Assembly: GCF_003051105.1 (NCBI RefSeq)
Contig: NZ_QAOO01000016.1
Span: forward strand, 1-64,000
Direction: 5' to 3'
Source of the DNA: Nitrosomonas nitrosa
Lineage (GTDB): Bacteria; Pseudomonadota; Gammaproteobacteria; Burkholderiales; Nitrosomonadaceae
Length of the DNA stretch: 64,000 nt
Of the stretch, positions 29,559 through 45,724 are shown in pieces (position 1 is the stretch's first letter; the number at the start of each line of letters is the position of its first letter). Below the pieces are notes generated by a model. That model ran no database searches and was not told the DNA's origin. It saw nothing but the letters and a program-made list of their open reading frames with translations. The translations under genes were made by a program, and so were the position numbers.

Positions 29559-30302
29559 TCATGATAACCCATCGGGAAGCGAATTTTGATGCATGCGTTG
29601 ATTACTTTCTCCAATCATTTCATGGAGCACATCTATTATGAGACGTCGCAGTGCCTGCCAGCGCGATCCGCCTTTAAGCGCAAACTTCTGATTGATTTCA
29701 AGTTCAATTCCCCAGTACGCCTCGGCTGGGAACCGACGTCTCAGGTAGACTGTCAAGCTATCCGCCTTTCCTGCATAAGGATAATTGCGCCGGACGATCA
29801 AATCAGACGCTGCTGCTTTGAGGCGCGATTGCCAGGCATGGCAAAATATCCGTTCACCCGCTCTCACCGGATCATAAAGCAAACCGATATCGGCATAACG
29901 CACCGCCCCATCGAGCACCGGTGTAAAGCTGTGCGAAGCGATATGAATAACACGGTTTCCTGCGCGAATGGTCTCAGTGATCGTTGCTTCAACTTGCTTA
30001 CGATAAGGTAAGTAGTAACGTGCCAGGATTTCTTGCTTAATCGCTTTTGATAAATGCTTGGTCGCCTCAGAGAACAATCGTGGATGCCCAATCGAACGGT
30101 TAAGGTCAATCAACAAACGGCTTGTCGTTGCAACAAACAAAGGTGCCTTTAAAGCCAGCGCCATTTCTTTCGCCATACGCAGCGCTCCACGGTCATAGCC
30201 TCGATGGCTATGCAGGAGAAACTCGTAACCATTAAAGAAAGATCGATATCGCTGCGGAATACGATTACCGCCATGCTCACAACTGATGAAGAATAGAGTC
30301 AT
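29559..30302 (-). CDS. N-formylglutamate amidohydrolase-like protein
   Basis: A 247-residue protein of the FGase (HutG-type) family. It begins FISCEHGGNRIPQRYR, which holds the first metal ligands. HRGYDRGALRMAKEMA and the HIASHSFTPVLDG motif follow, and ELEINQKFAL lies near the end. True formylglutamate hydrolysis belongs to histidine degradation, but no hut genes are nearby. Homologues often sit beside RimK-like ligases and GCS2-like ligases, and such a cluster occurs here 5 kb away. A role in releasing an amide or trimming a product of that cluster is therefore plausible. The tyrosinase and Kazal genes lie between. Confidence 0.85.
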   Translation of the reverse strand: MTLFFISCEHGGNRIPQRYRSFFNGYEFLLHSHRGYDRGALRMAKEMALALKAPLFVATTSRLLIDLNRSIGHPRLFSEATKHLSKAIKQEILARYYLPYRKQVEATITETIRAGNRVIHIASHSFTPVLDGAVRYADIGLLYDPVRAGERIFCHAWQSRLKAAASDLIVRRNYPYAGKADSLTVYLRRRFPAEAYWGIELEINQKFALKGGSRWQALRRLIIDVLHEMIGESNQRMHQNSLPDGLS

Positions 30303-30548
30303 TAATGACCAATGCTCCCGTTTGATCTTTCGCCGATTCTAACTGAAACGTCATTTTCCAAACAAATTTCATGCGCTTCGCTTGCTAGCCAATAAAGCCG
30401 CACACTGACGCTCCCTGGCGGGTTTACCCTATAGCCCAGCTATCCGTGCGACGCTCGATACTCGCGCGTTCAGGTAATCATTGGGTAATGATACATTCAT
30501 TGCCGATACGCTCTATCGGATTGGTTGTAATTATTTTTGGCTTCCTGA

Positions 30549-30566
30549 ATTGAAATTTATTTCAAT
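30549..30566. promoter_or_regulatory. Perfect inverted repeat, operator candidate
   Basis: ATTGAAAT-TT-ATTTCAAT, two perfect 8-bp arms with a 2-bp centre. It has the size and symmetry of a dimeric regulator site and lies about 165 bp upstream of the Kazal gene start. The regulator is unknown. Confidence 0.45.
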
Positions 30567-30574
30567 CGGTATAT

Positions 30575-30591
30575 GATCAGCATATCTGATC
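30575..30591. promoter_or_regulatory. Perfect inverted repeat, operator candidate
   Basis: GATCAG-CATAT-CTGATC, two perfect 6-bp arms with a 5-bp spacer, 8 bp after the first inverted repeat. It may be a second operator or part of a composite site. Confidence 0.4.
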
Positions 30592-30731
30592 GTGCTAAAT
30601 CATGAGAGCAAATCAGACACCCTGATGCTTAGGGTTGAACATTAGATCCCATCTCAATTTAAGCGATTTTAACGATTGCTAGATTACCCCTCTGGCAAAT
30701 CGATAACCTGTCTTGCAAAAGGAGGTTGACC

Positions 30732-31193
30732 ATGAACGCGCTGATCCCTTTGTTGGTAGCTTTTTCTATTTCCTCTATGTTGGTTGGTTGTAAAGAAAAT
30801 ATACCCCCAACACCTCCTGAAACGCCCGAAGTTGTCTGCGGGACCATCCAAGGATTGACTTGCCCAGAAGAGCAGTACTGCGATTTTGGAATAGGACAAT
30901 GCAAGGTTGCTGATGCGCAAGGCATCTGCAAGATAAAGCCTACGATCTGTACGAAAGAATATAAACCGGTCTGTGGCTGCGATGGCAAAACCTATAGTAA
31001 TGCCTGTGTAGCCGCAGCAGCGGGCGCTTCCATCGATCACTTGGGGGAATGCGCTCCGGCAGAACCTCAAGCCTGTGGGGGCATTGCTGGTTTCCCGTGC
31101 CCCGAAGGCATGAAATGTGTGGATGATCCTTCGGATGAATGTAATCCTGATCAAGGAAACGCAGATTGTCCGGGAATTTGTATAGCTGAGTAG
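30732..31193 (+). CDS. Secreted lipoprotein with Kazal-type domain and Cys-rich C-terminal module
   Basis: A 153-residue protein starting at the ATG at 30732, which has GGAGG 6 nt upstream; a TTG at 30726 is in frame but less likely. The lipobox is LVGC, so a lipidated envelope protein is expected. After a Pro-rich spacer it has a Cys-containing segment (TCPEEQYCDF). A Kazal fold follows (CTKEYKPVCGCDGKTYSNAC, then a final Cys in GECAP), typical of serine protease inhibitors. A C-terminal module CGGIAGFPCPEGMKCVDDPS recurs in the gene at 31446. Protease inhibition is a family inference; the target is unknown. Confidence 0.8.
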   Translation: MNALIPLLVAFSISSMLVGCKENIPPTPPETPEVVCGTIQGLTCPEEQYCDFGIGQCKVADAQGICKIKPTICTKEYKPVCGCDGKTYSNACVAAAAGASIDHLGECAPAEPQACGGIAGFPCPEGMKCVDDPSDECNPDQGNADCPGICIAE

Positions 31194-31445
31194 GCACGGC
31201 AAAGATGCTTAAGTCAATTGAAATGACTTCTCGCATCATTATCCTTGGATGGCCGAGGGTTTGGTTAGCATGATTATTGTTTATTCAGAACCACGCAGTA
31301 CAAGGATTTTGCATTGCAAATAGCGGGGGCTGCCTCATCTTTCAGGTTGCAAAGATCGAGGTAACCTACATGAGCCTCAGTGGGTGCGAAGTGAATTATG
31401 AGCATGGCTCCCATTATGGGCATAAAACTGAGTGAGGTGACGATT

Positions 31446-32219
31446 ATGAAACAACTTAAGCTATTTAAACTCTTCTTCATACTGCTCGGATTAGCGAGCG
31501 GGTCCGGTTTCATCGACAGCCAGCAAACTGCTCAGGCAGAAACAAAAAAATACGCGGAAGTGATTAAAACAGAGTATCAATATGCTGCAAAAATCACGTG
31601 TTCATTATTACTGCCACACCAGGATGGAGCATTGGCTAGGGGAATCTACCGCACAACGGTCAATATACACAACCCGACCAACAAGAAAATCTCCATCGCT
31701 GCCAAAGTAGCCCTTGCCACACAGTTTGGTTCTGAACCCGGTCCTTTTGATGTGACGCCTTTCAAAGGTGCCGAACTCCAGCCAGATGGCGCAGTTGGAA
31801 TCAATTGCTTTGATATTGCGAGCTACTTTTGTCCAATTGATGGTGTTTGTGTGGATTTTGCCTTTCTTGAGGGATTTTTGGTTGTAAAGAGCCCCGTGCC
31901 CTTGGATGTTGTCAGCGTTTATACGGCTCGGCATACCGAAAGCGACGTTGAATCTATAGCGGTAGAAACCGTTCCACCACGAAAAATTCAAGATACCGTT
32001 AAGTTGGGATCAACAGAGCACGCCAAGCCGGGCGAAGGAAAACGTATAGATTATCCACCCAAAGGAAGCGCTGCTTACTCTGATCAAAAGCCCAAACAAA
32101 TGTGTGGGGGCATTGCTGGTTTTCCGTGCCCTGAAGGCATGAAATGTGTGGATGATCCTTCGGATAACTGCGACCCTACCAAGGGTGACGCTGATTGTGC
32201 CGGAATGTGTGTGAAGTAG
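31446..32219 (+). CDS. Secreted protein of unknown function with the same Cys-rich C-terminal module
   Basis: A 257-residue protein. The ATG at 31446 follows a GAGGTGA ribosome binding site; the longer frame from 31398 lacks one. A signal peptide or anchor (LFKLFFILLGLASGSGF) is followed by a beta-rich domain of about 170 residues that I do not recognise (KYAEVIKTEYQYAAKITCSL, GIYRTTVNIHNPTNKKISI). A linker precedes the C-terminal module CGGIAGFPCPEGMKCVDDPS, nearly identical in DNA to that of the preceding gene. The two genes are on the same strand 252 bp apart and presumably functionally linked. Confidence 0.7.
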   Translation: MKQLKLFKLFFILLGLASGSGFIDSQQTAQAETKKYAEVIKTEYQYAAKITCSLLLPHQDGALARGIYRTTVNIHNPTNKKISIAAKVALATQFGSEPGPFDVTPFKGAELQPDGAVGINCFDIASYFCPIDGVCVDFAFLEGFLVVKSPVPLDVVSVYTARHTESDVESIAVETVPPRKIQDTVKLGSTEHAKPGEGKRIDYPPKGSAAYSDQKPKQMCGGIAGFPCPEGMKCVDDPSDNCDPTKGDADCAGMCVK

Positions 32220-32433
32220 CAGTTGCAATCTGAAAAACTGCAAGTGATGTATCGATCAATCGGCTTACTCGCAGGAATAGTGAGCGAGATTAGGAGTGTG
32301 CATGATGCCAACAACAGTAAGAATGGACAGAGATAAATGCGTCATTGTTTTCTTATTGACCCATTCCAACTCTCTGCGCTGCTTGTTTACATCAGTGCAC
32401 ACTCATTTATGATGCGCTCAAAGAATAAACGCC

Positions 32434-32904
32434 ATGAAACCCTTTGTATTGATTCTGATGAGCATCGCGGCGCTCGCTAAAACAAGCACAGCTCAGACGG
32501 AAGCTTATCCGTTTAAGACGATGACCTGCCACATCCAAGCGGCTGGAACGAGTGAGTGCACCGGTTTACCCACGCTACATTCCGGCGTACTCGTCATTTC
32601 GGAAGAAGGTACATTTGAACTAAAGGGATATTACCACGCGTGCTTTATGGTAGATGAAGCCACAAAATACGGGAAATACCAAGTATCTTATTTGAATGGC
32701 GCAATACGCCTAGAACTCCTGACGACGAAGACCATAGGCATGAGCGATGCACCGGATTTTCCGAGAACACTTGGAATTGTCACCTTAAATCGGGATCGGC
32801 TAGATGGTGAACTGATTGACCTATCCGCGGCACTGCGCGGACATTCGTATCATCCAGAAAACTTCGTATCCTTAACACTCCAATGCAAGGAGGTGAATGA
32901 ATAA
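32434..32904 (+). CDS. Predicted secreted protein of unknown function
   Basis: A 156-residue protein with a short signal peptide (FVLILMSIAALAKTSTAQT). Its four mature cysteines (MTCHIQ, SECTG, HACFM, LQCKE) could form two disulfides in the periplasm. I do not recognise the family. It lies 66 bp upstream of the small ORF and the tyrosinase on the same strand, so it may belong to the same unit. Confidence 0.6.
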   Translation: MKPFVLILMSIAALAKTSTAQTEAYPFKTMTCHIQAAGTSECTGLPTLHSGVLVISEEGTFELKGYYHACFMVDEATKYGKYQVSYLNGAIRLELLTTKTIGMSDAPDFPRTLGIVTLNRDRLDGELIDLSAALRGHSYHPENFVSLTLQCKEVNE

Positions 32905-32970
32905 TTTCACAAGCATCCCCTTTCCCAGCTGAGCAATCGTTTTTTATCCAACAGAAAAGGAGCCTAAAAT

Positions 32971-33186
32971 ATGTCACACCATCAAGAAACCTTTGAAGGC
33001 TGCACTATAGAAATCAAAGACGACATCGACTTGACCATCAATGGAAAAGTCATCGATTACGAACAAGATACTGCAAAAAAAAAGTTTTCATCGAAATATC
33101 TGCCCTACACCCAATATGATTCATTGTTGGAGATGGCAAGAGCGATCGCCCGACACACCGTCGAGTTTTCCAAGTCGAAGAAATAG
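32971..33186 (+). CDS. Small conserved-looking protein preceding tyrosinase
   Basis: A 71-residue polar protein with no signal peptide. It starts MSHHQETFEGCTIEIKDDID and ends in a helical YDSLLEMARAIARHTVEFSK. An AAAGGAG site precedes the ATG, and the stop codon is 32 bp from the tyrosinase start. Position and size recall the small caddie/cofactor proteins (MelC1-like) that help load copper into some bacterial tyrosinases. I cannot show homology to MelC1, so the role is an inference from context; the HH pair and Cys could bind a metal. Confidence 0.6.
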   Translation: MSHHQETFEGCTIEIKDDIDLTINGKVIDYEQDTAKKKFSSKYLPYTQYDSLLEMARAIARHTVEFSKSKK

Positions 33187-33218
33187 TCGAAATTAATTGA
33201 GAAAAGGAGAACATTCTC

Positions 33219-34697
33219 ATGGCCATCAGAAAAGATGCAAATACGCTAAGTGCTGCCGAACGGGCGGAATTCGTTGACGCCATCCTGACTTTAAAAGCAG
33301 AAGGGATCTACGATCAATTCGTGCTCAGGCATGCAAACGCCATCATGAACGCCATCCATCGATGCCCAGCTTTCCTGCCCTGGCACCGCCGTTTCCTCTT
33401 CGATCTCGAGCGGGAGCTTCAGCGTGTTTCCGGGAATCCCAATCTCGGTATCCCCTACTGGAACTGGCCATCGGGCGGCGCCAATGCCGCCATGTGGAAT
33501 GACGATCTACTAGGTGGAAATGGAGATGCCGGTGGCGTTGTCCGGACTGGACCCTTCCGGGCTGGCCAGTGGACCGTCGTTAATTCAAGCGGATCGCCGG
33601 CCGGCCCGCTCATGCGGGCTTTTGGCCAGAATGGTTTTCCGACCTTGCCCACTCAAGCTGAAATCAACCAAGTCATGGCTGTGACACCTTATGATGTGCC
33701 ATCATGGAACATGAACAGCAATCCAAGCTTCCGCAATCAGCTGGAAGGTTGGATCGGCCCCAACCTGCACAATCGCGGGCATGTCTGGGTCGGCGGTTCG
33801 ATGTTGCCAATGACCTCGCCCAATGACCCAGTGTTTTTCATGCATCACTGTATGGTTGACAAGATCTGGCACGAGTGGCAGCTCCGTTTCCCCAATCAAG
33901 GCTATCTTCCCGCCAGCGGTGGACCTTTTGGTCAGAATCTGACCGACCCTATGGATAGTACACCTTCAGGGCAGATCGGCCCCCGGCCAATCGATGTTTT
34001 AGATAGCACGGCACTAGGAATTGTTTATGACGATGCCGTCGTTCAACCTCAGCCTGAGATACCGCTTCTCATCGTCGGTGCCAATCCGATGCAAGCTGAT
34101 ATCGGAGCACCTGGAGAAGTCGATGTCTTCCGCTTTGAAGTGCCATCGTTTGGTCCCTATACCCTGTTTACCACGGGATCATCTGACACGTTCATGACTC
34201 TTTTTGGCCCCAATGATCCGAATATCGAAGTGACATCAAACGATGATGGTGGGGAAAACCTTAATTCGCAAATTGGCAGAAATCTCTCGGCAGGCACCTA
34301 TTACCTGCGTATCCGCCTTTTCAGTCCAAGCGCAACAGGCAATTATGCGGTTGCTGTCCGCGCTGAGGGTAACGCACCTAACCCTATTCCCGAACTCGCC
34401 GTCGATGGAGCAAGCATTAATGCGGCCATTGCTGCAGCCAATGAAAGTGATCTCTACCGCTTCACCATCACGACAGGAGGAATCTATACCATTCAAACCA
34501 CCGGCACCACAGATACCTTTATGACCTTGCACGGCCCAAACAGTCAGCTACCCGAAATTGCCCGCAATGACGATGGCGGCGCCTCTTTCAATGCACGGAT
34601 TCGTCGCCAAATCTCACCTGGCGAATATTTCGTCCGCATAAGGCATTTCTCGCCTGTTGGAACAGGACCTTATTCCATCCGGATAACACGGGGATGA
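33219..34697 (+). CDS. Tyrosinase (type 3 copper oxidase) with two PPC domains
   Basis: A 492-residue protein. The tyrosinase domain occupies about residues 1-270. The CuA ligands are H38, H47 and H56 (HANAIMNAIHRCPAFLPWHR). The CuB ligands are H184, H188 (LHNRGHVWVGG) and the His pair 209/210 (FFMHHCMVDKIWHEW). It should oxidise phenols or diphenols with O2. Two bacterial pre-peptidase C-terminal (PPC) beta domains follow (about 280-390 and 395-492), each with a DTFMTL and a NDDGG motif. PPC domains are usually extracellular, yet no signal peptide is visible. A GGAG ribosome binding site precedes the ATG. Confidence 0.9.
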   Translation: MAIRKDANTLSAAERAEFVDAILTLKAEGIYDQFVLRHANAIMNAIHRCPAFLPWHRRFLFDLERELQRVSGNPNLGIPYWNWPSGGANAAMWNDDLLGGNGDAGGVVRTGPFRAGQWTVVNSSGSPAGPLMRAFGQNGFPTLPTQAEINQVMAVTPYDVPSWNMNSNPSFRNQLEGWIGPNLHNRGHVWVGGSMLPMTSPNDPVFFMHHCMVDKIWHEWQLRFPNQGYLPASGGPFGQNLTDPMDSTPSGQIGPRPIDVLDSTALGIVYDDAVVQPQPEIPLLIVGANPMQADIGAPGEVDVFRFEVPSFGPYTLFTTGSSDTFMTLFGPNDPNIEVTSNDDGGENLNSQIGRNLSAGTYYLRIRLFSPSATGNYAVAVRAEGNAPNPIPELAVDGASINAAIAAANESDLYRFTITTGGIYTIQTTGTTDTFMTLHGPNSQLPEIARNDDGGASFNARIRRQISPGEYFVRIRHFSPVGTGPYSIRITRG

Positions 34698-34811
34698 TAC
34701 AGGCAAAAGATCATGCGCGGCATGAACTCGGTATCACAACGAGAAATCCATTCACATGCATGGCGTTCTGAAAGATGCATTCCATCGAAACGATGTAACA
34801 ATCCAATCCCA

Positions 34812-34844
34812 GTGACCCCCTATATTACGGGGTCACACCTTTTT
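34812..34844 (+). terminator. Intrinsic terminator after the tyrosinase
   Basis: Perfect 8-bp stem GTGACCCC / GGGGTCAC (34812-34819, 34829-34836), 9-nt loop, then CACC-free run of five T ending at 34844. It closes the plus-strand Kazal-to-tyrosinase stretch. Confidence 0.85.
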
Positions 34845-34888
34845 AGTGAGCAGAAAACGATGCTGATCCCCGCTCCCAAATTGCGATA

Positions 34889-35326
34889 TCAAATCGAACC
34901 CGCAATTTGTACGTTAATCTTGCGCTGACGTGGACCGTCGAGTTCTACCAATAACACCGATTGCCATACCCCTAGCGTAGGTGCGCCTTCAAACACTGAT
35001 AAAGTCTGCGTAGCCCCCAACAAGATAGAAGCAATATGTGCGTGGGCATTAAGGGGCTCATCGGGCATATTGCGAGCAAGGATATCGTTGTGTAAATAAG
35101 CCGCGTCCTTGGGCACCAAACGACTCAACACACCTTTGATATCCTCCAACAATCTTGGCTCGTTTTCATTCACGATCACCGCACAGGTGGTATGCAACGA
35201 ACTGACAATCATCCAGCCCTGCCAAATGCCCGATGCGGAGATGAGTGCTCGCAGCCTCGGGGTAAGATCATAAAATTCAAGTTCCGCGGATGTTTCAATT
35301 TCAAGAACATGATTGATACACTTCAT
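34889..35326 (-). CDS. YjbQ family protein (UPF0047, secondary thiamine-phosphate synthase type)
   Basis: A 145-residue single-domain protein. Family motifs visible: SLHTTCAVIVNENEPRLLED, an HND in AAYLHNDILARNMPDEP, HAHIASILLGATQTL, and the terminal LVELDGPRQRKINVQ. Homologues have weak thiamine-phosphate synthase activity, and the physiological role is uncertain. It lies 162 bp downstream of the GCS2-like gene on the same strand and could be the last gene of that cluster. Confidence 0.88.
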   Translation of the reverse strand: MKCINHVLEIETSAELEFYDLTPRLRALISASGIWQGWMIVSSLHTTCAVIVNENEPRLLEDIKGVLSRLVPKDAAYLHNDILARNMPDEPLNAHAHIASILLGATQTLSVFEGAPTLGVWQSVLLVELDGPRQRKINVQIAGSI

Positions 35327-35488
35327 AACAATCCTTTTTATCGTCCAATATTCCTAGCAGAAACACAATGTTAACGTATCCACTTTCTCCGCCTTCCATT
35401 CTCAGCATGGCTTGCAACAGTTTCACAGTCTATCCGATTGCTACAAAACGATGTGGATCGACATCGTTTCGACATCAAACTTTAACGT

Positions 35489-36733
35489 TTAACCTACTCC
35501 TTGAAACAACTGCCCCTCTTGGAGACAATCACATAATGCATGATAAACCCGTTGCATTTTTTTCTGGTTAGTCTCACTACCCAATGCGCACATGATACGA
35601 CGCGCTAGCGGTCCTCGTTCAAGCATGACGGCTAATGCATCGTGCCAATGCTGAAGAGTTTCTGGTTTGGCCAGGGCAGTCATGAGGTGTGCCCACAACT
35701 CCCTTGCTTCGCAATGCTGCTTGGGAAACCCCATGAGGCGCAAATATACGCTATCGGTAATGCTGGCTTGCTCAGCATCGCGTATGCAATCCTGCAAGAT
35801 TTTGACCAATGCATCGGTGCCAATGGCCTGCTGATCCGCGCGTGATGCCGTTCGCTGGTCATATAGGGCATGGACGATATCGCGCACCACTGCGGCGATC
35901 GCCAGATCGGCCTGCGGGCATTCCTGCACGTCGATGACACGGATTTCGATTGCATTACGGACAAAGCGCGCAACAGCGCCCCGCACATTCAGCCATTCAT
36001 GCTGCAAAATGCCTTCTGCATCCAGCACCGCAATTTCATGATACATCGGCATTAGAATATGTGTTTGGTATGCAGCGCGACTCGCTATCGTCTCCGGGAT
36101 AACTTTTCCCATGGTTGAAGGGATTCTGATTTGATGTGTCAGGTAATTATTCATACGCGTATCCAGAAAACCCGTTGGTTTCCCTTCTGCCAACGGCGAG
36201 CTCGCTGCCAACGCAGGCAGGATAGGCAGTACTAGCCGAATGGCGGCATGCAAGCCCGCAAATTCGGCGTCATCGATGAAGGGCAGGTTCAGATGCATAC
36301 TCTGTAAGTTAGACCAACCATGGCGCTTACAGTCAAAGATACGATCATAGGTGCGGTAGATTTCCGCGTTGTCATGCGGCCATAGCTTTGTTTCCAGCCA
36401 CGGATTCATCCAGGGGTGCATGGCTGACGGCATCAACCTTGCGCCGCAGCAAGCGAGTTGCTCATTGATATATCGAATTTCCCGCTGAAACAGCGTTGAA
36501 AGCAATTCAATGGCGGGTTCTGGCTCGGTGTTCTTGAGTTCGATTTGATGTAGGACAATCTCATTGGACCAAGTAGCACGACGCCTCTGGACTTCAGCAA
36601 CGTCTCTGCCCGCAAGCCGATGCAGCAATCGATCTGCGATAGGCAGAACGGAAAGACGCTCGCGATCGACTATCATATACTCCAATTCGATGCCATAACC
36701 CGAAAAAGCGGGCAACGACTGAGCACTCACCAT
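35489..36733 (-). CDS. GCS2-type carboxylate-amine ligase (glutamate-cysteine ligase-like)
   Basis: A protein of about 414 residues in the GCS2/YbdK superfamily, glutamine-synthetase-like ligases that join a carboxylate to an amine with ATP. The N-terminal FSGYGIELEYMIVDRE holds the metal-binding Glu pair. IRYINEQLACCGARLMPSAM, HPWMNPWLETKLWPHD and the SMHLNLPFIDDAEFA segment follow. The start at 36733 overlaps the end of the RimK-like gene by 7 nt; an earlier start at 36751 is possible. This tight coupling to an ATP-grasp ligase and a C39-like peptidase argues against ordinary glutathione synthesis. The substrate is unknown. Confidence 0.85.
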   Translation of the reverse strand: MVSAQSLPAFSGYGIELEYMIVDRERLSVLPIADRLLHRLAGRDVAEVQRRRATWSNEIVLHQIELKNTEPEPAIELLSTLFQREIRYINEQLACCGARLMPSAMHPWMNPWLETKLWPHDNAEIYRTYDRIFDCKRHGWSNLQSMHLNLPFIDDAEFAGLHAAIRLVLPILPALAASSPLAEGKPTGFLDTRMNNYLTHQIRIPSTMGKVIPETIASRAAYQTHILMPMYHEIAVLDAEGILQHEWLNVRGAVARFVRNAIEIRVIDVQECPQADLAIAAVVRDIVHALYDQRTASRADQQAIGTDALVKILQDCIRDAEQASITDSVYLRLMGFPKQHCEARELWAHLMTALAKPETLQHWHDALAVMLERGPLARRIMCALGSETNQKKMQRVYHALCDCLQEGQLFQGVG

Positions 36734-38199
36734 TGAACACCCTGCTTGCACCTATCCAACCGATGCAAAAATACCGTCATGATTTGCTGATATAAATCTT
36801 CCTTGAGAATACCGTCCTCATTGCCCGCATCGACGTTGGGATTATCGTTGATCTCGATAACATAGCAGCGCTTGCCAGCCTGCTTGATGTCCACGCCATA
36901 CAGTCCATCACCGATCAGATTGGCCGCCTTGAGCGCCATCTTCACGACCTTAACCGGCGCTTCTACCAAAGATACCGCTTGTGTCAGCCCTTCGACGTAG
37001 TCGTGTTTTTGTTCACCATGCTTGACAATCTGCCAATGCCCCGGCGCCATGAAGTATTTACAGACGAATAGCGGTCGACGATCGAGTATGCCTACCCGCC
37101 AATCAAACTCGGTCGGCAAATATTCCTGAGCCACAATCAGTTCGGATTTTTCCAGCAACTCGTTTACTTTGTGCCGTAATTCCGTTTCAGTCGTGACCTT
37201 GGCAACCCCCAGTGAAAATGAACTATCCGGTTGTTTAAGCACGCAAGGCAGCGTCAGCGCAGGAATGACCTGCTCGACATTGTCCCGATGCACCAGCAGG
37301 GTTCGCGGCACAGGAATACGATGCCGGGTCATGAGCTCGGCCAAGTAAACCTTGTTGTTACATTTTAGAATGGAATTCGGATCATCGATTACGACCAAAC
37401 CCTCAGCGCTTGCCTGCCGGGAAAAGCGGTAGGTGTAATGATTGACGTAAGTAGTATCACGAATGAACAACGCATCGAATTCCGGCAATCGCCCCATATC
37501 CGCACGCGTAATGAATTCGACGTGCATCCCCAGGTTTTCCGCCGCTTTCTCGAAATACTTCATCGCCTTGACGTTGGAAGGCGGTTCAGGATCATTGGGA
37601 TCATGCAGGATCGCTAAATCGTAACGCGGCGCTATCTGTTTAGGTACCCACGGCTTGCGCCCAGAAAAATAATCGATGGCCGCCTGTACGACAAAATCCT
37701 GATGCTGCGGCGGGATCTCACTCGCAGCAATCGTTTTGATGCTACGAATGCGCCACTGTCCGCCATGTCGATCGAAATAGGCGCGTAACAAAGGTGCTTG
37801 CAGTAAATTGAACAGCTGACGGCTCAGCTGATCGTAATGCTTAGCCATATTGCGGCCAAAATAGATACTGAGTTCAAAATGATCGGATTTGAGCGCAACG
37901 AGCGATTTCTGCACCCGTTCATCCAGTTGCTCGGTCAGCAATCTCACCAAGCCGGGAGAATGCAAATCCTCGATAGCATTTACACGGGGAAAGGGTTTAT
38001 GTCCGCGCGCTTCGGCCAGGAGTGAAACGTAATACCCCAGACTCTGGTAGCGATAGGATTTACAGAGATTAAAAACACGCGCTCTCAGTTGGCTGCCAAA
38101 TGCGGGATCGGTCAGATAGGCTTTAGCTGAAATCACCATCACATCTGGCATAGCCAATGGCCAATCACGGGGATTACTAACGACGATCAGAATGCTCAT
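36727..38199 (-). CDS. RimK-like ATP-grasp ligase with RLAN-type N-terminal domain
   Basis: A 490-residue protein. The N-terminal half (about 1-190) resembles the RimK-like ATP-grasp N-terminal (RLAN) domain seen in comparative studies of amidoligase clusters. The ATP-grasp half has LKCNNKVYLAELMTRHRIPV, LPCVLKQPDSSFSLGVAKV, the VAQEYLPTEFDWRVGILD core and the metal/catalytic motif YVIEINDNPNVDAGNE. It should form amide bonds, such as adding an amino acid to a peptide or small acid. It overlaps the C39-like gene by 4 nt upstream and the GCS2-like gene by 7 nt downstream, a strictly coupled operon. Confidence 0.87.
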   Translation of the reverse strand: MSILIVVSNPRDWPLAMPDVMVISAKAYLTDPAFGSQLRARVFNLCKSYRYQSLGYYVSLLAEARGHKPFPRVNAIEDLHSPGLVRLLTEQLDERVQKSLVALKSDHFELSIYFGRNMAKHYDQLSRQLFNLLQAPLLRAYFDRHGGQWRIRSIKTIAASEIPPQHQDFVVQAAIDYFSGRKPWVPKQIAPRYDLAILHDPNDPEPPSNVKAMKYFEKAAENLGMHVEFITRADMGRLPEFDALFIRDTTYVNHYTYRFSRQASAEGLVVIDDPNSILKCNNKVYLAELMTRHRIPVPRTLLVHRDNVEQVIPALTLPCVLKQPDSSFSLGVAKVTTETELRHKVNELLEKSELIVAQEYLPTEFDWRVGILDRRPLFVCKYFMAPGHWQIVKHGEQKHDYVEGLTQAVSLVEAPVKVVKMALKAANLIGDGLYGVDIKQAGKRCYVIEINDNPNVDAGNEDGILKEDLYQQIMTVFLHRLDRCKQGVQW

Positions 38200-38936
38200 G
38201 GCAACTCAGCTTGTGCAGCATGCGCATGCTGCGATGAATGGATGACCAGTAGATTGGAATCGTAGGTTACAATCCCCAACAGAATTGCGCTGATCACTCG
38301 GTCGATATTGCACCAATATTCCTGAGTCGGCCGTCCGTAGGGATCAGCGACCAACAAGGTGCGCTTGGTACGGTTATACCCTGTGATCACAACGAAATGG
38401 CCAGCCGGAAAACCGAGAATATCATCTGGCACATCATTCGGCCCATGCTCGCGCGCCGCGCGATATAAAAAAGTCGAGCTCAGCCCCGTCAAAATCGGCA
38501 AACCACGGCGCAGCAATCCGTGAATCAGCGCATGGGATAGATCGGACATGCGGAGCTTCCCTCCCAAACTCAGAAACTCCAAATAACCCTCAGTGACATA
38601 ATGTAATCTACGGTCCGATTTTACGGCACGTTGCCGCCGCAATCGCTCGGCAATATCAATGCCCCCCACGAACCAAGTGGGATCGAACACGACCAGATTA
38701 TAGGTATAGATGGTAGCCTGGAATCCATTGCGCAACGCATCACACGCCAAAAACACGTCAAATGTGCCGCTTCCACTTTCCAACTTAGGCGTGCGGGCAA
38801 TGATATCTTCCAGCGAATCGCGCTTCCCCCAATAATTGTAAACAGCGTGCAGACAGGTTGGTCCGCAAGTAGTTTCATCCGGTTGCGGCAATATACTGAC
38901 AGGAAGATGATGGATGGATCTTAACTTGGCAACCAT
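38196..38936 (-). CDS. C39-like cysteine peptidase
   Basis: A 246-residue cytosolic protein (no signal peptide) with an intact papain-like C39 active site. Oxyanion Gln18 and nucleophile Cys24 are seen in LPQPDETTCGPTCLHAVYNY. The His is in AGHFVVITGYNRT and the Asp in LLVADPYGRP. C39 domains usually cleave leader peptides after double Gly in ABC exporters. Here the domain stands alone, fused to no transporter, and is the first gene of the C39-RimK-GCS2 operon, so it may process the peptide substrate or product of the ligases. Confidence 0.85.
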   Translation of the reverse strand: MVAKLRSIHHLPVSILPQPDETTCGPTCLHAVYNYWGKRDSLEDIIARTPKLESGSGTFDVFLACDALRNGFQATIYTYNLVVFDPTWFVGGIDIAERLRRQRAVKSDRRLHYVTEGYLEFLSLGGKLRMSDLSHALIHGLLRRGLPILTGLSSTFLYRAAREHGPNDVPDDILGFPAGHFVVITGYNRTKRTLLVADPYGRPTQEYWCNIDRVISAILLGIVTYDSNLLVIHSSQHAHAAQAELP

Positions 38937-39099: not shown

Positions 39100-39645
39100 T
39101 TAATAAACCAGATCTTGCTGGCTGGCGTTAATCACCTCTCCATTGAATTGATATGCCATAACCCGATTGCCATAAACCATGCGGCGAGTTTGTCGCAAGT
39201 CATCCACCGCTGCGCTGGGCCATAACCTGACGGCCTTGCCGGTCAGCCGGTATTTCTGTTTGCTGCTGCGCGGCTTGTTGGGGATGGTCATTTCAATCAG
39301 TCCAGCATCCAGAGCCGGGAGCAGATAGGCCTTGCGGAAATGCTCATCATCTTTCAGCCCGAGCGCCTCTTTGAGCTGTTGCCAGGTCATCTCGGAGGCC
39401 AAAACCGAGAGCAGTCGGACTTCCGGGGTTACTTCCTGCGTCACTTCCGGGGTCGAGGTATTCACAGTATCCAGGATCATCCGCAGCATGAAGGCGATGA
39501 AGGGCGCAGAATCGGTCTGTCTGGTGCTCTCCTGCAATGCCTGGTAATACTGGGCCTGGTGTTCGAAGATCAGGCTTTCCACCGGGATGGCGGCGACCAG
39601 ATTCACAATCGCCGGAGTGATGGTGTAGGGTGGCTGGTAGTTCAT
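39100..39645 (-). CDS. Internally deleted Fic-family protein (catalytic core missing)
   Basis: A 181-residue ORF with a perfect AAGGAGG ribosome binding site. The first 19 residues (MNYQPPYTITPAIVNLVAA) are the N-terminus of Fic proteins. The next stretch (IPVESLIFEHQAQYYQALQE, DSAPFIAFMLRMIL) normally lies after the HPFxxGNGR motif of the Fic domain. The roughly 170 residues between, including the catalytic His, are absent in frame. The C-terminal winged-helix tail (LIEMTIPNKPRSSKQKYRLT) is kept and matches that of the AlbA-type regulator at 41714. AMPylation is therefore not expected; DNA binding may persist. It is the last gene of the restriction island, 67 bp after hsdS. Confidence 0.8.
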   Translation of the reverse strand: MNYQPPYTITPAIVNLVAAIPVESLIFEHQAQYYQALQESTRQTDSAPFIAFMLRMILDTVNTSTPEVTQEVTPEVRLLSVLASEMTWQQLKEALGLKDDEHFRKAYLLPALDAGLIEMTIPNKPRSSKQKYRLTGKAVRLWPSAAVDDLRQTRRMVYGNRVMAYQFNGEVINASQQDLVY

Positions 39646-39664
39646 GGGACCTCCTTATGGGCCT

Positions 39665-39690
39665 CACACGAAGGCACGAAGACACGAAGG
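39665..39690 (+). repeat. Short dispersed repeat (CACACGAAGGCACGAAG family)
   Basis: A copy of the 26-bp repeat with internal 9-bp periodicity (cacgaaggc/cacgaagac). It lies between the Fic remnant and hsdS. Other copies occur at 40354, 40554, 40595 (variant), 41249, 41443, 41678, 45678 and in each unit of the 44621 array. Confidence 0.85.
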
Positions 39691-39712
39691 GTTGAAGATA
39701 GATAGGTAGTAT

Positions 39713-41485
39713 TCATACGGCGGCCATCACGGCGTTGAGGAGTTCGATTTGTTTGCCGGTTGCGGCGTCGATCTGCTGGTCGAGCGTGTCGCACAGGGCC
39801 ATCAACTGGTCGATGCGGGCGACAATGCGGTGCTGTTCGGGGAGAGGGGGCAGCAATACCGGCATGTTGTTCAGTATGCCATGATTAAGATTTGTCATGG
39901 TGGTGCCAACAGAATTGCCTCCAAGGTACTCTTTTGCATATTCTGTTTTGAACAGATTCAAAATGTATTGCCGGTCGATATTGTCGATAAACCTCAAGAC
40001 GAAACTACCTGTTCCGCACAAAAAACCATCAGATTCGGCGGTGACAATGGCGCACCTACCCATTTCTCCACGTCGAGCCATTACAATGTCGTTTTCAAAT
40101 AGCCTGTAAGAACTTAGCTTTTTTGCCATGCGCTGAGAGACCGAAACTGACAAATCATGTACGATTTTTCCGTCAATCATATGTGAGGGATTGATTAGCG
40201 GTATTCCATCCGACACATAGTCACTCTTGTGGATCATTGATCCAAATGGTCCAGTTGCGATTTCCGTTGTTAAATCTCCCAATCTCACCCATTCCCACCC
40301 CTGCGGCAGTTCGTAAGGCACTTCCTCCGGTTTGACGGGCGGCAGCTTTTCCTTCCTTCGTGTCTTCGTGCCTTCGTGTGAGGCCCTTTCTTTTTCGATC
40401 TCTTTCAGCAGTTCGCTGGCGGGCGGGTCGTTGGGGTCTTGGGGGACGAGGCGGCCCATGACGGCGAGCTGGAGGATGGCCTTGCGCAGTTCGGCGACGT
40501 TTTCCTTGACGGTGTAGAGTTCGCCGAAGTGCTGGTCTAGAAATGCGAATAGCTCACACGAAGGCACGAAGGCACGAAGGGTTGAAGAATTTTCCTCACG
40601 CGAAGGCGCAAAGGCGCAAAGAGAAGGATCGAGCAGTTGTTTGATGGCAGCGGCGTGGACAGCTAGCCGCTTCTCCTCCCGCTCCTTGCGCAGCTTTTCC
40701 AGCGCATCACAACGGGCCATCAACTGGTCGATGCGGGCGACAATGCGGTGTTGTTCGGGGAAGGGGGGTAGAGGATGAACACTCATCACGGCATCATCTG
40801 TACCAAGCCTCGGCATTTTTACGCCATACATCAGGGAATTGACGTGCGCCAGAAATGCTGGGCGTTTGAGTAGCCATTTGAGAAATTCAGCATTTAAGCC
40901 GTGAAACGGAACGATCGGTACGATCTCCGTTGTACAAACGCCATCACTATCGGCAACGATTACCTTGTCGAGATAAGGCCGCAGCTTTCCGTAGAGCACA
41001 TCGCCTTTCTGAAAGGTTGATTTTGTAGATTTTGATTGACGCTCTGAGAATGTTGCTCGGTAGAGAAGACGAGATGTACCCTTCTCAATATCCTCTAGAT
41101 CCAACAACCATGTATTGGGGGTTATTTCATCCCCTGAGATGTTGTTTCTGCCATTGTAATCTGTGATGTCACCCAACCTTACCCACTCCCACCCCTTTGG
41201 CAGTTCGTAAGGCACTTCCTCCGGCTTGACGGGCGGCAGTTTTTCTTTCCTTCGTGTCTTCGTGCCTTCGTGTGAGGCCTTTTCTTTCTCAATCTCTTTC
41301 AGCAACTCCGAAGCAGGCGGATCATTCGGGTCCTGCTCCACCAGCTTGCCCTGCATGGCGAGGGTTAATATCAGCTCACGCAGCCGGGCAATGCCATCGG
41401 GTGCGGCAAAGGCGGTGTCGAAGTGCTGTTCCAGCAGATCGCTCACACGAAGGCGCGAAGGCACGAAGGAGAGCGATCTGGTCAT
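39713..41485 (-). CDS. hsdS: Type I restriction-modification specificity subunit HsdS
   Basis: A 590-residue protein with two target recognition domains, each ending in the coiled-coil-preceding LPPLPEQHRIVARIDQLMA (second) or PFPEQHRIVARIDQLMARCD (first). It determines the DNA sequence bound by the HsdM/HsdR complex. The two halves are strikingly parallel: each begins with a conserved helix (LILTLAMQGKLVEQDPNDPP; ILQLAVMGRLVPQDPNDPP) and a LPPVKPEEVPYELP block. Five in-frame copies of the dispersed CACACGAAGGCACGAAG repeat encode [23 protein letters not shown] and FVPSCE at the junctions. A GGAGGGG site precedes the ATG at 41485. Confidence 0.92.
   Translation of the reverse strand: MTRSLSFVPSRLRVSDLLEQHFDTAFAAPDGIARLRELILTLAMQGKLVEQDPNDPPASELLKEIEKEKASHEGTKTRRKEKLPPVKPEEVPYELPKGWEWVRLGDITDYNGRNNISGDEITPNTWLLDLEDIEKGTSRLLYRATFSERQSKSTKSTFQKGDVLYGKLRPYLDKVIVADSDGVCTTEIVPIVPFHGLNAEFLKWLLKRPAFLAHVNSLMYGVKMPRLGTDDAVMSVHPLPPFPEQHRIVARIDQLMARCDALEKLRKEREEKRLAVHAAAIKQLLDPSLCAFAPSREENSSTLRAFVPSCELFAFLDQHFGELYTVKENVAELRKAILQLAVMGRLVPQDPNDPPASELLKEIEKERASHEGTKTRRKEKLPPVKPEEVPYELPQGWEWVRLGDLTTEIATGPFGSMIHKSDYVSDGIPLINPSHMIDGKIVHDLSVSVSQRMAKKLSSYRLFENDIVMARRGEMGRCAIVTAESDGFLCGTGSFVLRFIDNIDRQYILNLFKTEYAKEYLGGNSVGTTMTNLNHGILNNMPVLLPPLPEQHRIVARIDQLMALCDTLDQQIDAATGKQIELLNAVMAAV
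40354..40381 (-). repeat. Dispersed repeat inside hsdS (encodes SHEGTKTRR)
   Basis: An in-frame copy of the CACACGAAGGCACGAAG repeat, just before the second recognition domain. The same sequence at 41249-41275 precedes the first. Confidence 0.85.
40554..40620 (+). repeat. Two adjacent dispersed repeats inside hsdS
   Basis: One canonical copy (40554-40580) and one diverged copy with GCGCAAAG units (40595-40620), separated by GTTGAAGAATTTTC. They encode the linker around APSREE and FVPSCE between the two halves of HsdS. Confidence 0.8.
41249..41275 (-). repeat. Dispersed repeat inside hsdS (first SHEGTKTRR)
   Basis: An in-frame copy preceding the first recognition domain. It is identical in its core to the copy at 40354, so the two flank a roughly 0.9-kb segment. 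Confidence 0.85.
41443..41469 (+). repeat. Dispersed repeat at the hsdS N-terminus
   Basis: Encodes SFVPSRLRVS a few codons after the hsdS start, suggesting that the element inserted at or created the 5' end of this reading frame. Confidence 0.8.
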
Positions 41486-41630
41486 ATACCCCTCCCGGCC
41501 TGAATAACTGGAAATAGTGCAGCAGCCTGCTGCACTTTTATGGAGCCGATCATTTGTGCCACGGTCTGTGTCACAAATACCGAAAGGTGTTGGCCAAATT
41601 GTCCAACAAGCGGTTGGATAAATCGTTGCC

Positions 41631-41703
41631 GCGAACCTGGATACCCACCTGCGCGGGTATGACGTAAATTTTCAACCCTTCGTATCTTCGCGCCTTCGTG
41701 TGA
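41631..41703. repeat. Two repeat elements in the spacer between the AlbA-type gene and hsdS
   Basis: 41631-41665 resembles the common dispersed CTGGATtCCCGCCTGCGCGG repeat of proteobacterial genomes, with an imperfect ACCTGCGCGGGT palindrome. 41678-41703 is another CACACGAAGGCGCGAAG-type copy. The rest of the 41486-41713 spacer holds no supported gene. Confidence 0.65.
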
Positions 41704-41713
41704 GACGTTTCCG

Positions 41714-43132
41714 TTATTCATCGCCGCCCTCCTTGTTCAGCAAAGCCCGTCCTTTATCGGTAAGGTGGTATTTCTGCAGGCGGCTTCGGGGTTTGTCAGG
41801 GATGGTCATTTCGATGATTCCCTGCTCGATCAACGGGACCAGATGCCGCTTGTAGTTCAGGTAAACATTCGCCAGGCCGATTGCCTCAAGCAATTCGGCC
41901 TTTGACTGTGGCTGAGTTTTACAGGCAATCAACACTCTGGCGACTTGCTCACTGACTTGCTCACTGACTTGCTCACTGACTTGCTCACCGATTGACCCAC
42001 CTATTTCCCCACCTGGCTCCATGGCGACCTTTGCTCGGAAGATGGCCGTGAAGAAGTCGTTGTAGCGCAGGTCCAATTCGGTGCCGCCGTGTTCGGCGAC
42101 CGCTTGGCGGATACGGTTGATGCCGGTGCCGATTTTTTCGATGTAGTCGATGCGATGCAGCAGCGAGGCAATAAGGGGGTTGCGGGCCACACTGCGGGTG
42201 CCGAATTCCTCCGGTGGTAATCCGCTGGGCAATCCGCCGGGATTGGTGATGACGACCCGATCGGCGAACACTTCGATCAATACGTTGGCGCGTTTGTCGA
42301 AGTAGTCCCGATGGCAGACTGCGTTGATGACGGCCTCGCGCAGCGCCACTTCGGGATAATCCGGAATCTCCTCGCGGCGCAAGTGTTCAATTTTATAGCG
42401 GAGTTTAGTATGCCGCTGGATGAACAGCATAGCGTTGTCGATGTTGTCTACCAGGTTGGCCTTGAAGTCCTTCTTGTCCAGGATATGCACCTTGTCGTTT
42501 CCCTTGTAAAGGACACAGCCGACAATGGCGTGGTTGAGCAGGAAATCGATGTCCCTGGCAAAGAAGAGAACGCCCGCATTTGTTAACCGGTTGTCGGCGG
42601 TAAGGCAATCCAGGTTGCGCAGCAGGGTATCGCGGTCAATGCTCGGGCTGATACCGGCCAGTTTCAGGAAGTGGGCAAAGGCATCGGGGTCGAAATCGTC
42701 GGGATAAACAGCCTTGGCATGACTGAGTTCATCGAAACGGATGCGGCCTTCCTTCTGGAAGAACTCGATGATCTGATTGCGGGTGAGCTTTTGCGAATTG
42801 GCGCCCATGCGCATGAAAAAGCCACGGGAACAGCCGTAGGGTTTTTCCGTCCCTTCGGGAATTTTGACGACGAGGACATCGCCGACCGCTTCGATGTTGC
42901 AGCTCAGCCGCGACTCGATCTGGCCCAGCGTGTCCTGCACGCGGGAACGCATGACGTTACCAGTGTCGACACCCTTGATGACACCATTATCGGAGACGCC
43001 TAGGAGAATCCTGCCTCCGCCCGAGTTGGCGAAGGCACAGGCCTCCTCGACGAAGGATTTGTCGAGGCTCTGCTTGAACTCGGTGTGATACCCTTCGCCC
43101 GCCAGCAACAGGGGTGTCAATGAATCAGTCAA
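41714..43132 (-). CDS. Schlafen/AlbA-type ATP-binding regulator of the restriction island
   Basis: A 472-residue protein. The N-terminal AlbA_2/Schlafen domain is YHTEFKQSLDKSFVEEACAF with GGRILLGVSDNG. A GHKL-like ATPase segment follows (REAVINAVCHRDYFDKRANV, NPGGLPSGLPPEEFG, GTGINRIRQAV). The winged-helix tail (KYHLTDKGRALL) is preceded by four EQVS repeats encoded by a 12-bp tandem repeat. It starts at a TTG that overlaps the hsdM stop (TTGA), so translation is probably coupled. Such proteins frequently accompany type I systems, with a regulatory or defence role not firmly established. Confidence 0.82.
   Translation of the reverse strand: MTDSLTPLLLAGEGYHTEFKQSLDKSFVEEACAFANSGGGRILLGVSDNGVIKGVDTGNVMRSRVQDTLGQIESRLSCNIEAVGDVLVVKIPEGTEKPYGCSRGFFMRMGANSQKLTRNQIIEFFQKEGRIRFDELSHAKAVYPDDFDPDAFAHFLKLAGISPSIDRDTLLRNLDCLTADNRLTNAGVLFFARDIDFLLNHAIVGCVLYKGNDKVHILDKKDFKANLVDNIDNAMLFIQRHTKLRYKIEHLRREEIPDYPEVALREAVINAVCHRDYFDKRANVLIEVFADRVVITNPGGLPSGLPPEEFGTRSVARNPLIASLLHRIDYIEKIGTGINRIRQAVAEHGGTELDLRYNDFFTAIFRAKVAMEPGGEIGGSIGEQVSEQVSEQVSEQVARVLIACKTQPQSKAELLEAIGLANVYLNYKRHLVPLIEQGIIEMTIPDKPRSRLQKYHLTDKGRALLNKEGGDE
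41941..41992. repeat. 12-bp in-frame tandem repeat (VNTR) in the AlbA-type gene
   Basis: The unit GACTTGCTCACT is repeated about four times, encoding EQVSEQVSEQVSEQV on the minus strand. Copy number can change without breaking the frame, altering the linker length between the ATPase and the DNA-binding tail. Confidence 0.9.
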
Positions 43133-44622
43133 GCCTTACTCCGCTTGTCTGTCGACAGACAGGCCATCAACTCGGCTTTCAACGCCTGCTGCGCCGCTTC
43201 GAGCTGGTGAACGATCTGCTGGTACTCGGCCATCAACTCTTCCGGATCACGGTGGTTGACCTCCACCTCGTGGGGGTTCTTGCAGTCGAGATTGTAATTG
43301 CGCTCAGCCAGCTCTTTGGCGGAGACCTTCCAGGCCTGCTCGGTGGTCTTACGCCCACGACGGGAGGCTCCGCCCCACCAACCCTTTTCGAGATCGAACT
43401 CGGCGATGGTTAGAGGTTTGGAGCGGGAGTAGGACTTGTAGCCCTCGGGATACGGGTGCTCGAAGAACCAAACCTCGTTGGTCGGGCCGCCCTTTTCGAA
43501 GAATAGAATGTTAGTAGCGATGCTGGTGTAGGGGCTGAACACGCCCTTGGGTAGTCGCACGATGGTGTGCAGGTCGAACTCCTCCAGCAACTCGCGCTTG
43601 AGGGAGATCTTGACACCTTCGCCAAACAGAAAGCCGTCAGGCAGCACCACGGCTGCCTTCCCACCCTCTCCATTTTTGGAGGGATGCTTCAAGAGATGCA
43701 TGATCAGCGCCATGAACAGATCGGCGGTTTCACGGGTCTGGTATTTGCGCGGGAAGTTGTTCTCGATGCCGTCTTCTTCCATGCCGCCGAAGGGCGGATT
43801 GGTGATGATCAAGTCTACCCGGTCGCGAGGACCGTAATCCTTGAGCGGTCGGCTCAGGGTGTTGTCGTGGCGAACGTTGGTAGGTACATCGATGCCGTGC
43901 AGCATCATGTTGGTCATGGCCAGCATGTGCGGCAGCGGTTTCTTCTCCACCCCAAAGATACACTCCTGCAATCGCTTGCGGTCGTCGGCGGTTTTAACCT
44001 GCTGTTTCAGGTGCTCGATGGCGCAGGTGAGAAAGCCGCCGGTGCCGCAGGCCGGGTCGAGAATGGATTGCCCGAGCTGCGGGTCGAGCATATCGACCAT
44101 GAACTGGGTGACGGCGCGGGGTGTGTAGTACTCGCCCGCGTTCCCGGCCGATTGCAGGTCAGAAAGGATCTTTTCGTAGATGTCGTTGAACAGGTGACGG
44201 TCGCCGGATTTGTTGAAGTCCACATCCTCTTCGATAGTGTTGATCACCTGGCGCAACAGGGTGCCGGACTTCATGTAGTTGTAAGCGTCCTCGAAGACCG
44301 AACCGACCACCTTGCCATGGGACGAGATACCGGCGGCGGTGGCCAGTTTCTTGAGTGCCGGGAAAAGGTCATTGTTGACGAAGTCGATCAGCTCCTCACC
44401 TGTCATCCCCTCGGGGTTCTTGGCCCAGCTAGACCAGCGGAAACGGCTAGGCAGCGGCGATTTGTAACCGGGCACGGTGAGCTGCCACTCTTGTTCCTTG
44501 TCGTCGAAGATCTTCAGGAAAATCAGCCAGACCATCTGGCTGATGCGCTGAGCGTCGCCATCGACGCCAACATCCTTGCGCATGATGTCCTGTATGGCTT
44601 TGATCAGGGTGGTGAGTGACAT
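43129..44622 (-). CDS. hsdM: Type I restriction-modification methyltransferase HsdM
   Basis: N6-adenine methyltransferase subunit of about 497 residues. The N-terminal helical domain has LTTLIKAIQDIMRKDVGVDG and KIFDDKEQEWQL. SAM-binding motif I is SILDPACGTGGFLTCAIEH and catalytic motif IV is LIITNPPFGGMEEDG. The FLFGEGVKISLKRELLEEF and FFEKGGPTNEVWFFEHP segments are also typical. I start it at the ATG at 44622 (MSLTTLIKAIQ), preceded by a GGATAACAACT leader. The longer frame to 44655 only reads into the repeat array. Confidence 0.95.
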   Translation of the reverse strand: MSLTTLIKAIQDIMRKDVGVDGDAQRISQMVWLIFLKIFDDKEQEWQLTVPGYKSPLPSRFRWSSWAKNPEGMTGEELIDFVNNDLFPALKKLATAAGISSHGKVVGSVFEDAYNYMKSGTLLRQVINTIEEDVDFNKSGDRHLFNDIYEKILSDLQSAGNAGEYYTPRAVTQFMVDMLDPQLGQSILDPACGTGGFLTCAIEHLKQQVKTADDRKRLQECIFGVEKKPLPHMLAMTNMMLHGIDVPTNVRHDNTLSRPLKDYGPRDRVDLIITNPPFGGMEEDGIENNFPRKYQTRETADLFMALIMHLLKHPSKNGEGGKAAVVLPDGFLFGEGVKISLKRELLEEFDLHTIVRLPKGVFSPYTSIATNILFFEKGGPTNEVWFFEHPYPEGYKSYSRSKPLTIAEFDLEKGWWGGASRRGRKTTEQAWKVSAKELAERNYNLDCKNPHEVEVNHRDPEELMAEYQQIVHQLEAAQQALKAELMACLSTDKRSKA

Positions 44623-45410: not shown

Positions 45411-45724
45411 TTAGAATGAACGGGCGCAAGTTTTTCTACTGACTTGAGCTCAATCAGTAGCAGATCCTCGACGATCAAATCAGCCCTGAATCCTTCGTTG
45501 ATGGAAAGTCCCATCACCTCAATCGGAATGGCCTGCTGTCGGCTTACCTTAAGGCCTTTCCCCAATAACAGTTTTTCTAATACTGCCTCATACACCGATT
45601 CCAGCAAACCCGGCCCGATCTCAACATGCATTCGGTACGCACAATCCACGACAATCCGAGAAAGCTCTTCCTTGTCCCTTCGTGTCTTCGTGCCTTCGTG
45701 TGAGATTCCCTGCTTACCCGGCAT
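45260..45724 (-). CDS. GxxExxY protein (PD-(D/E)xK-like)
   Basis: A protein of about 154 residues with the family signature [20 protein letters not shown] and the nuclease-like [19 protein letters not shown] (Asp and Glu-x-Lys). The biochemical role of GxxExxY proteins is unknown. The ATG at 45724 lies inside the last codons of hsdR (TATGCCGGGTAA), suggesting coupling. The N-terminal [12 protein letters not shown] is a translated dispersed repeat (45678-45703) that replaced the usual short N-terminus. The C-terminus ends in another copy ([10 protein letters not shown]) that lies in the 158-bp array. Confidence 0.82.
45678..45703 (-). repeat. Dispersed repeat at the 5' end of the GxxExxY gene
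   Basis: A copy of the CACACGAAGGCACGAAG family, inserted between the hsdR stop region and the conserved part of the GxxExxY protein, and translated in frame. Confidence 0.8.

Follow-up and report, generated by a model that had tools for sequence, protein, structure and literature searches.

RimK/RimB and RloC/RloA, according to PMC12239564, couple a RimK-type ATP-grasp ligase with a dedicated protease, and Alpha-E, Bact_transglu_N and CP-ATP-grasp proteins make up a peptide synthesis or modification system according to PMC3597751, a system reportedly put forward by Iyer et al. in 2009. PMC4431377, PMC8939145 and PMC2922099 treat other ATP-grasp systems. The locus considered here is from Nitrosomonas nitrosa (assembly GCF_003051105.1, contig NZ_QAOO01000016.1), where the window, the whole stretch of 64,000 nucleotides that was analysed, encodes a C39-type papain-fold cysteine enzyme, an RLAN-RimK ligase, a GCS2-family ligase and an FGase-like hydrolase. 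Amidoligase neighbourhoods of this kind were reportedly predicted by Iyer et al. in 2009; no characterised member of the RLAN ligase family was found in the literature searched, which did not cover that prediction paper. A sequence-only reading of the stretch had taken the genes for a coupled, uncharacterised amidoligase neighbourhood, and gene identity, operon structure and co-occurrence now support that. The reading preferred here, with a probability of about 0.4, is of a cytoplasmic pathway that makes and breaks glutamyl-type amides, with two writers and two erasers and an acceptor that is probably a small peptide or metabolite.

All four genes are on the minus strand, in the order C39, RLAN ligase, GCS2, FGase. 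The first (38196..38936) encodes a C39 protein of 246 residues that matches Peptidase_C39_2 (PF13529, E 6.3e-12). In the 490-residue product of the second (36727..38199), an RLAN domain (PF14401, E 1.2e-51; residues 25-172, 37684..38127) is N-terminal to a RimK-like ATP-grasp domain (PF08443, E 1.9e-11; residues 281-459, 36823..37359), both over the curated Pfam cut-offs, and this arrangement within one protein is that of the RLAN-RimK family. The third gene (35489..36733, with a possible longer start at 36751) specifies a GCS2-family carboxylate-amine ligase, placed in that superfamily by its match to PF04107 (E 1.5e-22 for 35489-36751) and by conserved acidic residues. The displaced fourth gene (29559..30302) encodes an FGase-like hydrolase of the N-formylglutamate amidohydrolase family (PF05013, E 6.3e-24), to which none of the named NCBIfam families, HutG included, gave a match at E <= 1. 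C39 and RLAN genes overlap by 4 nucleotides, and RLAN and GCS2 genes by 25 from the GTG at 36751 or 7 from the internal ATG at 36733. The ATG is the more likely start, because four close relatives in the N. communis group (L001, L003, L004, L054) start there with the same 7-nucleotide overlap; the overlaps of 4 and 7 given earlier for the three minus-strand genes are thus correctly located, the second with this ATG. A scan for promoters and terminators gave no more sites than shuffled sequence.

Conservation was assessed in the best 80 of 151 related loci from a GTDB genome scan with the RLAN protein, a set in which near relatives are favoured and several loci stop at contig edges (among them L014, L027 and L069, the last cut by a contig end). 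Counted by BLAST of the open reading frames (ORFs) of each locus, with flanks up to 8 kb, C39 is present in 52, GCS2 in 51 and FGase in 40; C39, RLAN and GCS2 occur together in 51 and all four in 40. Comparison of gene neighbourhoods, which the sequence-only reading had left to be made, finds its three genes together both here and in the same genomes of the order sample described below. The overlap is exactly 4 nucleotides in 39 of 51 C39-RLAN junctions, and in 40 of the 80 loci FGase lies within about 200 nucleotides downstream of GCS2, overlapping it by 4 in nine. Because 40 of the 51 three-gene loci also hold FGase, the operon is C39-RLAN-GCS2-FGase, and the FGase-like gene, earlier offered as a possible accessory, does belong, as the usual fourth gene and not as an accessory. 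Nine of the 11 three-gene loci without an adjacent FGase were traced for the gene, and it is elsewhere in the genome of five members of the N. communis group (L001-L004, L054) and of L072. GCS2 and FGase are about 5.2 kb apart in the window. Since FGase closely follows GCS2 in 40 of the 80 relatives, the intervening stretch (30303..35488), whose plus strand encodes a Kazal-type protein, a tyrosinase and two products that match nothing in Pfam and whose minus strand encodes YjbQ, would be an insertion outside the system, the alternative being that FGase moved. The tyrosinase encoded in this gap (33219-34697) has two PPC stretches. YjbQ (34889), the other accessory once suggested, was rejected as a member, being present in 0 of the 80 loci. 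The upstream gene of cluster 5 was found in 15 of 80 but was dropped, as its position varies and antisense ORFs are mixed in.

Catalytic residues were followed in alignments of hand-chosen rows (those lacking a clear start were omitted), made up of the window row with 30 of 52 C39 rows, 30 RLAN rows (29 of 78 complete and the cut L069), 30 of 38 complete GCS2 rows or 27 of 39 FGase rows. The C39 residues Q18, C24, H180 and D198 are kept in 31 of 31, so the triad had rightly been called intact, and so are K283, K322, D437, E449, N451 and N453 of the ATP-grasp part of the RLAN ligase. The same count holds for E22, E24, E64, E269 and R271 of GCS2, with H153 in 30 of 31 and Gln in the remaining sequence; in known ligases the acidic residues bind metal. 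E9, H10 and H120 of FGase are invariant (28/28).

The RLAN ligase model has a mean predicted local distance difference test (pLDDT) score of 82. In a fold comparison covering residues 191-486, residues 193-486 are nearest RimK, ArgX and LysX, including complexes with RpsF and LysW (best Z 25-26, compared with 22 for D-Ala-D-Ala ligases). RimK, ArgX and LysX add Glu or aminoadipate at carboxyl ends, and the likeness counts in favour of the glutamyl-type pathway. It also favours the main rival, modelled on RimK/RimB acting on ribosomal protein S6, in which the RLAN ligase, with GCS2, would lengthen a protein at its C-terminus or on a side chain and C39 would trim the added residues. The pairing of RimK-type ligase with dedicated protease, shared with RimK/RimB and RloC/RloA, favours it too; the protease of those systems is aspartic and retropepsin-like whereas the operon has a cysteine enzyme, and GCS2 and FGase go unmentioned for them in the accessible portion of PMC12239564. 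No shared small carrier-like ORF is found beside the operon, and a protein target is judged unlikely, though to be taken seriously. GCS2 and FGase families, moreover, are associated with small substrates.

For the C39 model (pLDDT 88) the nearest folds, at Z 15-16, are exporter C39 domains, the phytochelatin synthase Alr0975 with its glutathione intermediate, and a C39-like peptidase. Alr0975 is ranked first by Foldseek and is tied with the C39 domains (Z 15.8, root-mean-square deviation 3.1, 164 residues aligned); the isopeptidase PeiR, at Z 14.8, is tied or nearly so with the other top folds. The protein does not belong to the Phytochelatin family itself (PF05023, E 0.28, 10.8 bits against a cut-off of 24.9).

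Among 200 genomes of the order, drawn irrespective of RLAN, ten have RLAN and nine each have C39 and GCS2. The nine are identical for C39 and GCS2, each with an adjacent RLAN, in G122 across a contig break. FGase (E 1e-50) is in 15, namely eight of the nine operon genomes and seven others. Of these seven non-operon FGases, three have a Pfam-confirmed transglutaminase gene nearby, one of them Alpha-E also; L164 and L167 resemble transglutaminase loci by eye, and L165 and L166 adjoin a 251-residue protein, and the one copy scanned matched no Pfam family. The operon thus shares its FGase subfamily with the Alpha-E/CP-ATP-grasp/transglutaminase system but has other ligases and neither Alpha-E nor transglutaminase.

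Going by the names on their records, operon loci are found in Nitrosomonadaceae, some Gallionellaceae, Thiobacillaceae, Hydrogenophilaceae, Sulfuricella, Rhodocyclaceae/Zoogloeaceae, Herminiimonas and Desulfobulbaceae. The four genes, two probably for joining amino-acid-type molecules and two probably for cutting such joins, thus keep company in bacteria that oxidise ammonia or sulfur and in certain relatives of these, and they look like a real pathway. The four-gene variant is narrowly distributed, since in a sample of 398 Pseudomonadota genomes operon-type C39 is in the window's own genome only and RLAN is in 72. A Legionella adelaidensis record is annotated RLAN-GCS2-FGase; C39 was not found on that record, on which RLAN is cut by the edge. 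In-frame stops in two C39 and two FGase matches are probably alignment overrun, as full-length open ORFs are present. Searches for plasmid carriage of C39 gave no match, none of 56 pattern matches for viral carriage of GCS2 was confirmed, and the four proteins matched 0 families of the PADLOC anti-phage defence models at E <= 0.01.

Elsewhere in the phylum the partners of RLAN differ. From 75 matches in 72 genomes, 31 wider loci (30 genomes) were hand-picked for diversity; all have a ligase of the same family, with profile E values from 2e-128 to 6e-172, and operon-type C39, GCS2 and FGase are in none of them at E 1e-3. Instead, a GNAT protein adjoins RLAN in 30 of 31, as a full GNAT-C39 fusion in 21 and a GNAT-only ORF in nine; all five fusions scanned have PF00583 and PF11814. 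The profile of the fusion, derived from 19 of the loci, aligns with that of the operon C39 across the Cys, His and Asp motifs (hhalign probability 97%). These RLAN-RimK plus GNAT-DUF3335 loci (PF14401/PF08443 with PF00583/PF11814) therefore have the same ligase family as the window and, mostly adjoining it, a C39-type papain domain with the Q/C/H/D pattern, but the window operon has no GNAT, its C39 is a separate PF13529 protein, and GCS2 and FGase are added. Such a neighbour is usual for the RLAN-RimK family without defining it; there is no GNAT or GNAT-C39 gene beside the window RLAN gene, and none was found in 28 of 28 betaproteobacterial RLAN genomes by a search that had no positive control. 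In a tree of 110 RLAN sequences (L060 left out; a quick search without bootstrap, with some long branches) all 31 GNAT-context sequences are on one side of a branch with 100% support in the Shimodaira-Hasegawa-like approximate likelihood ratio test, and operon and solo RLANs are opposite. Partners have been exchanged along this tree, and the operon-type partners GCS2, FGase and free C39 seem to stand in for GNAT or GNAT-C39. An RLAN ORF at L135 (4553-6532), adjoining a GNAT-C39 gene, has a match of its own to the GNAT-C39 profile, in the GNAT portion.

In the make-and-break pathway proposed, GCS2 would be the first writer, forming a gamma-glutamyl-type amide on the acceptor, and the RLAN/RimK ligase, as second writer and hub, would attach an amino acid, probably glutamate, to a carboxylate end of the same molecule. 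At the bond made by RLAN, C39 would cleave or transfer by way of a Cys acyl-enzyme, much as phytochelatin synthase acts on glutathione, and FGase, erasing the work of the first writer, would hydrolyse the N-acyl-glutamate end. The pairing of writers with erasers follows the RimK/RimB precedent. As the RLAN hub in most other Pseudomonadota loci pairs with GNAT or GNAT-C39, the GCS2/FGase pair is proposed to swap acetyl capping for glutamyl capping. The individual reactions, the order of the steps and the glutamyl character of the amide are all conjectural, and a small acceptor, the weakest link of the proposal, is suggested by the GCS2 and FGase families, which are known for small substrates. 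A broader version, which is doubtful, would make RLAN the constant centre for a widespread and so far unnoticed class of peptides in Pseudomonadota, of low molecular weight and bearing interchangeable caps. The cap would be acetyl where GNAT adds it, or gamma-glutamyl where GCS2 writes it and FGase removes it. A phytochelatin-synthase-like C39 enzyme would process the product, giving glutathione-making cells a second, parallel peptide economy. The four-gene variant is compact with conserved active sites, and natural variants (RLAN alone, RLAN relocated, GNAT for GCS2 and FGase) permit direct comparison of metabolomes; a product, if found, would show what chemistry is carried out by one of the predicted kinds of amidoligase neighbourhood.

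Several observations weigh against the pathway. RimK relatives also modify proteins, and therefore the acceptor may be a protein. Two further entries, 1uc8 for LysX and a protein with a RimK domain, reach only Z of about 22 with the ligase model, equal to D-Ala-D-Ala ligases, and ordinary peptidases are among the fold matches of C39, for which fold likeness gives no substrate. FGase of the same subfamily is in 7 of the 200 order genomes without the operon, is lacking in G167, an operon genome of that sample, and was not found in the three-gene operon genomes L039, L043 and L078 (G167 and L039 are probably one genome). The GNAT link is not universal, because L117 has no GNAT beside RLAN and an RLAN on a Pseudomonas aeruginosa plasmid has no annotated GNAT neighbour in a gene table that is incomplete. 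RLAN is without the other partners in 28 of the 80 related loci; of 24 solo-RLAN genomes searched, C39 is elsewhere in five and absent in 19, and FGase was found in 0 of 15 searched. Both are lacking in the Nitrosospira-type solo genomes L051, L057 and L076.

The solo loci also bear on whether RLAN is an independent enzyme, with C39, GCS2 and FGase a separate pathway that merely shares its operon. Solo RLANs are nested within the operon clade by four label changes (five in the whole tree). Five of eight Nitrosospira and Nitrosovibrio genomes with a solo RLAN have C39 elsewhere, and in the three of these five that were inspected it is in a C39-GCS2-FGase operon apart from RLAN; that these genomes keep the partners at a second site counts for the pathway as well. 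Of 20 solo loci outside these genera, 16 were searched for C39 and 12 for FGase; C39 was in none of the 16 genomes, mostly Gallionellaceae assemblies of unstated completeness, and it was also not found in G095. RLAN is thus able to stand alone. Set against this independence, C39 and GCS2 are never without RLAN in a genome of the order sample (9/9), and elsewhere too RLAN adjoins a protein with a C39-type domain, so that separate pathways are considered rather improbable. The nesting of solo RLANs in the tree fits an operon type that arose once and whose partners were later lost or separated several times.

With a GCS2-family ligase, an ATP-grasp ligase and a papain-fold enzyme, the operon has the kinds of protein that serve in glutathione and phytochelatin synthesis, and the family name of GCS2, with a remote likeness to plant glutamate-cysteine ligases at the profile level (E 0.002-0.003), could be taken to mean that the cell uses it as glutamate-cysteine ligase and the operon as a glutathione pathway. 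The housekeeping genes are separate from the operon, however. The genome has gshA_ferroox (TIGR02049, 539 bits against a cut-off of 293.9) adjoining the glutathione synthase gene gshB, and no match to PF04262. For this reason the operon GCS2 is not regarded as the housekeeping enzyme; it is also far under the cut-offs of named NCBIfam ligases (PRK13515, 63.2 against 371 bits; TIGR02050, 58.8 against 176.4), and the RLAN ligase is not gshB. An ordinary glutamate-cysteine ligase partnered by gshB, the identity that the sequence-only reading had named as fatal to its view, is hence found elsewhere in the genome and not in the operon, and a glutathione role for the operon is extremely improbable.

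Loci for ribosomally synthesised and post-translationally modified peptides can hold C39 peptidases as well as ATP-grasp ligases (PMC8939145), and the operon might make such a product, perhaps graspetide-like, with C39 as leader peptidase. Precursors were sought within 1.2 kb upstream of C39 (53 regions) and downstream of the last gene (49 regions), and no small ORF common to clades was present in either set, in keeping with the earlier remark that no short precursor peptide ORF is nearby; the clusters seen looked antisense or low-complexity or were confined to near relatives. The C39 protein is free-standing with no fusion to an ABC exporter, and the ligase is of RimK/RLAN type, so that modified-peptide biosynthesis is very unlikely. 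Since the operon genes abut or overlap, no exporter is encoded between them; wider linkage was not systematically searched.

In the window FGase is adjoined, at 22745-29231, by genes for a LonB/LonC-like protease, an M18 aminopeptidase and a relA-type protein. A relA-type gene likewise adjoins FGase in L171 (Pfam-confirmed) and L170 (by eye), and in the latter a short FGase fragment (3508-3720) is about 2.6 kb from the full gene (6316-7068) with the relA-like ORF between. Lon-like proteases, at 22745-25201 in the window, are also near eight Gallionella-type solo RLANs and the Nitrosovibrio operon of G591, and close to three Thiobacillus-type loci or at their margin (32-38% identity). As a tag-reading neighbour the protease was dropped, for in 12 operon genomes scanned up to 20 kb on each side, less where contigs end, only the case already known in G591 appeared.

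Upstream of the operon, 39100-47500 has type I restriction-modification-like genes and a gene for a protein with a Fic-like C-terminal part. Twelve copies of a 20-bp motif (<=2 mismatches; 0 expected) are at 39667-45700, in a stretch that by eye resembles type I restriction-modification genes; four copies are inside the ORF 39713-41485, which reads like a specificity gene, and at 44645-45277 the copies are 158 bp apart four times in succession, suggestive of a tandem array. The region 39100-47500 is richer in GC (0.54-0.55 at 40-48 kb against 0.43-0.51 elsewhere) and was perhaps acquired.

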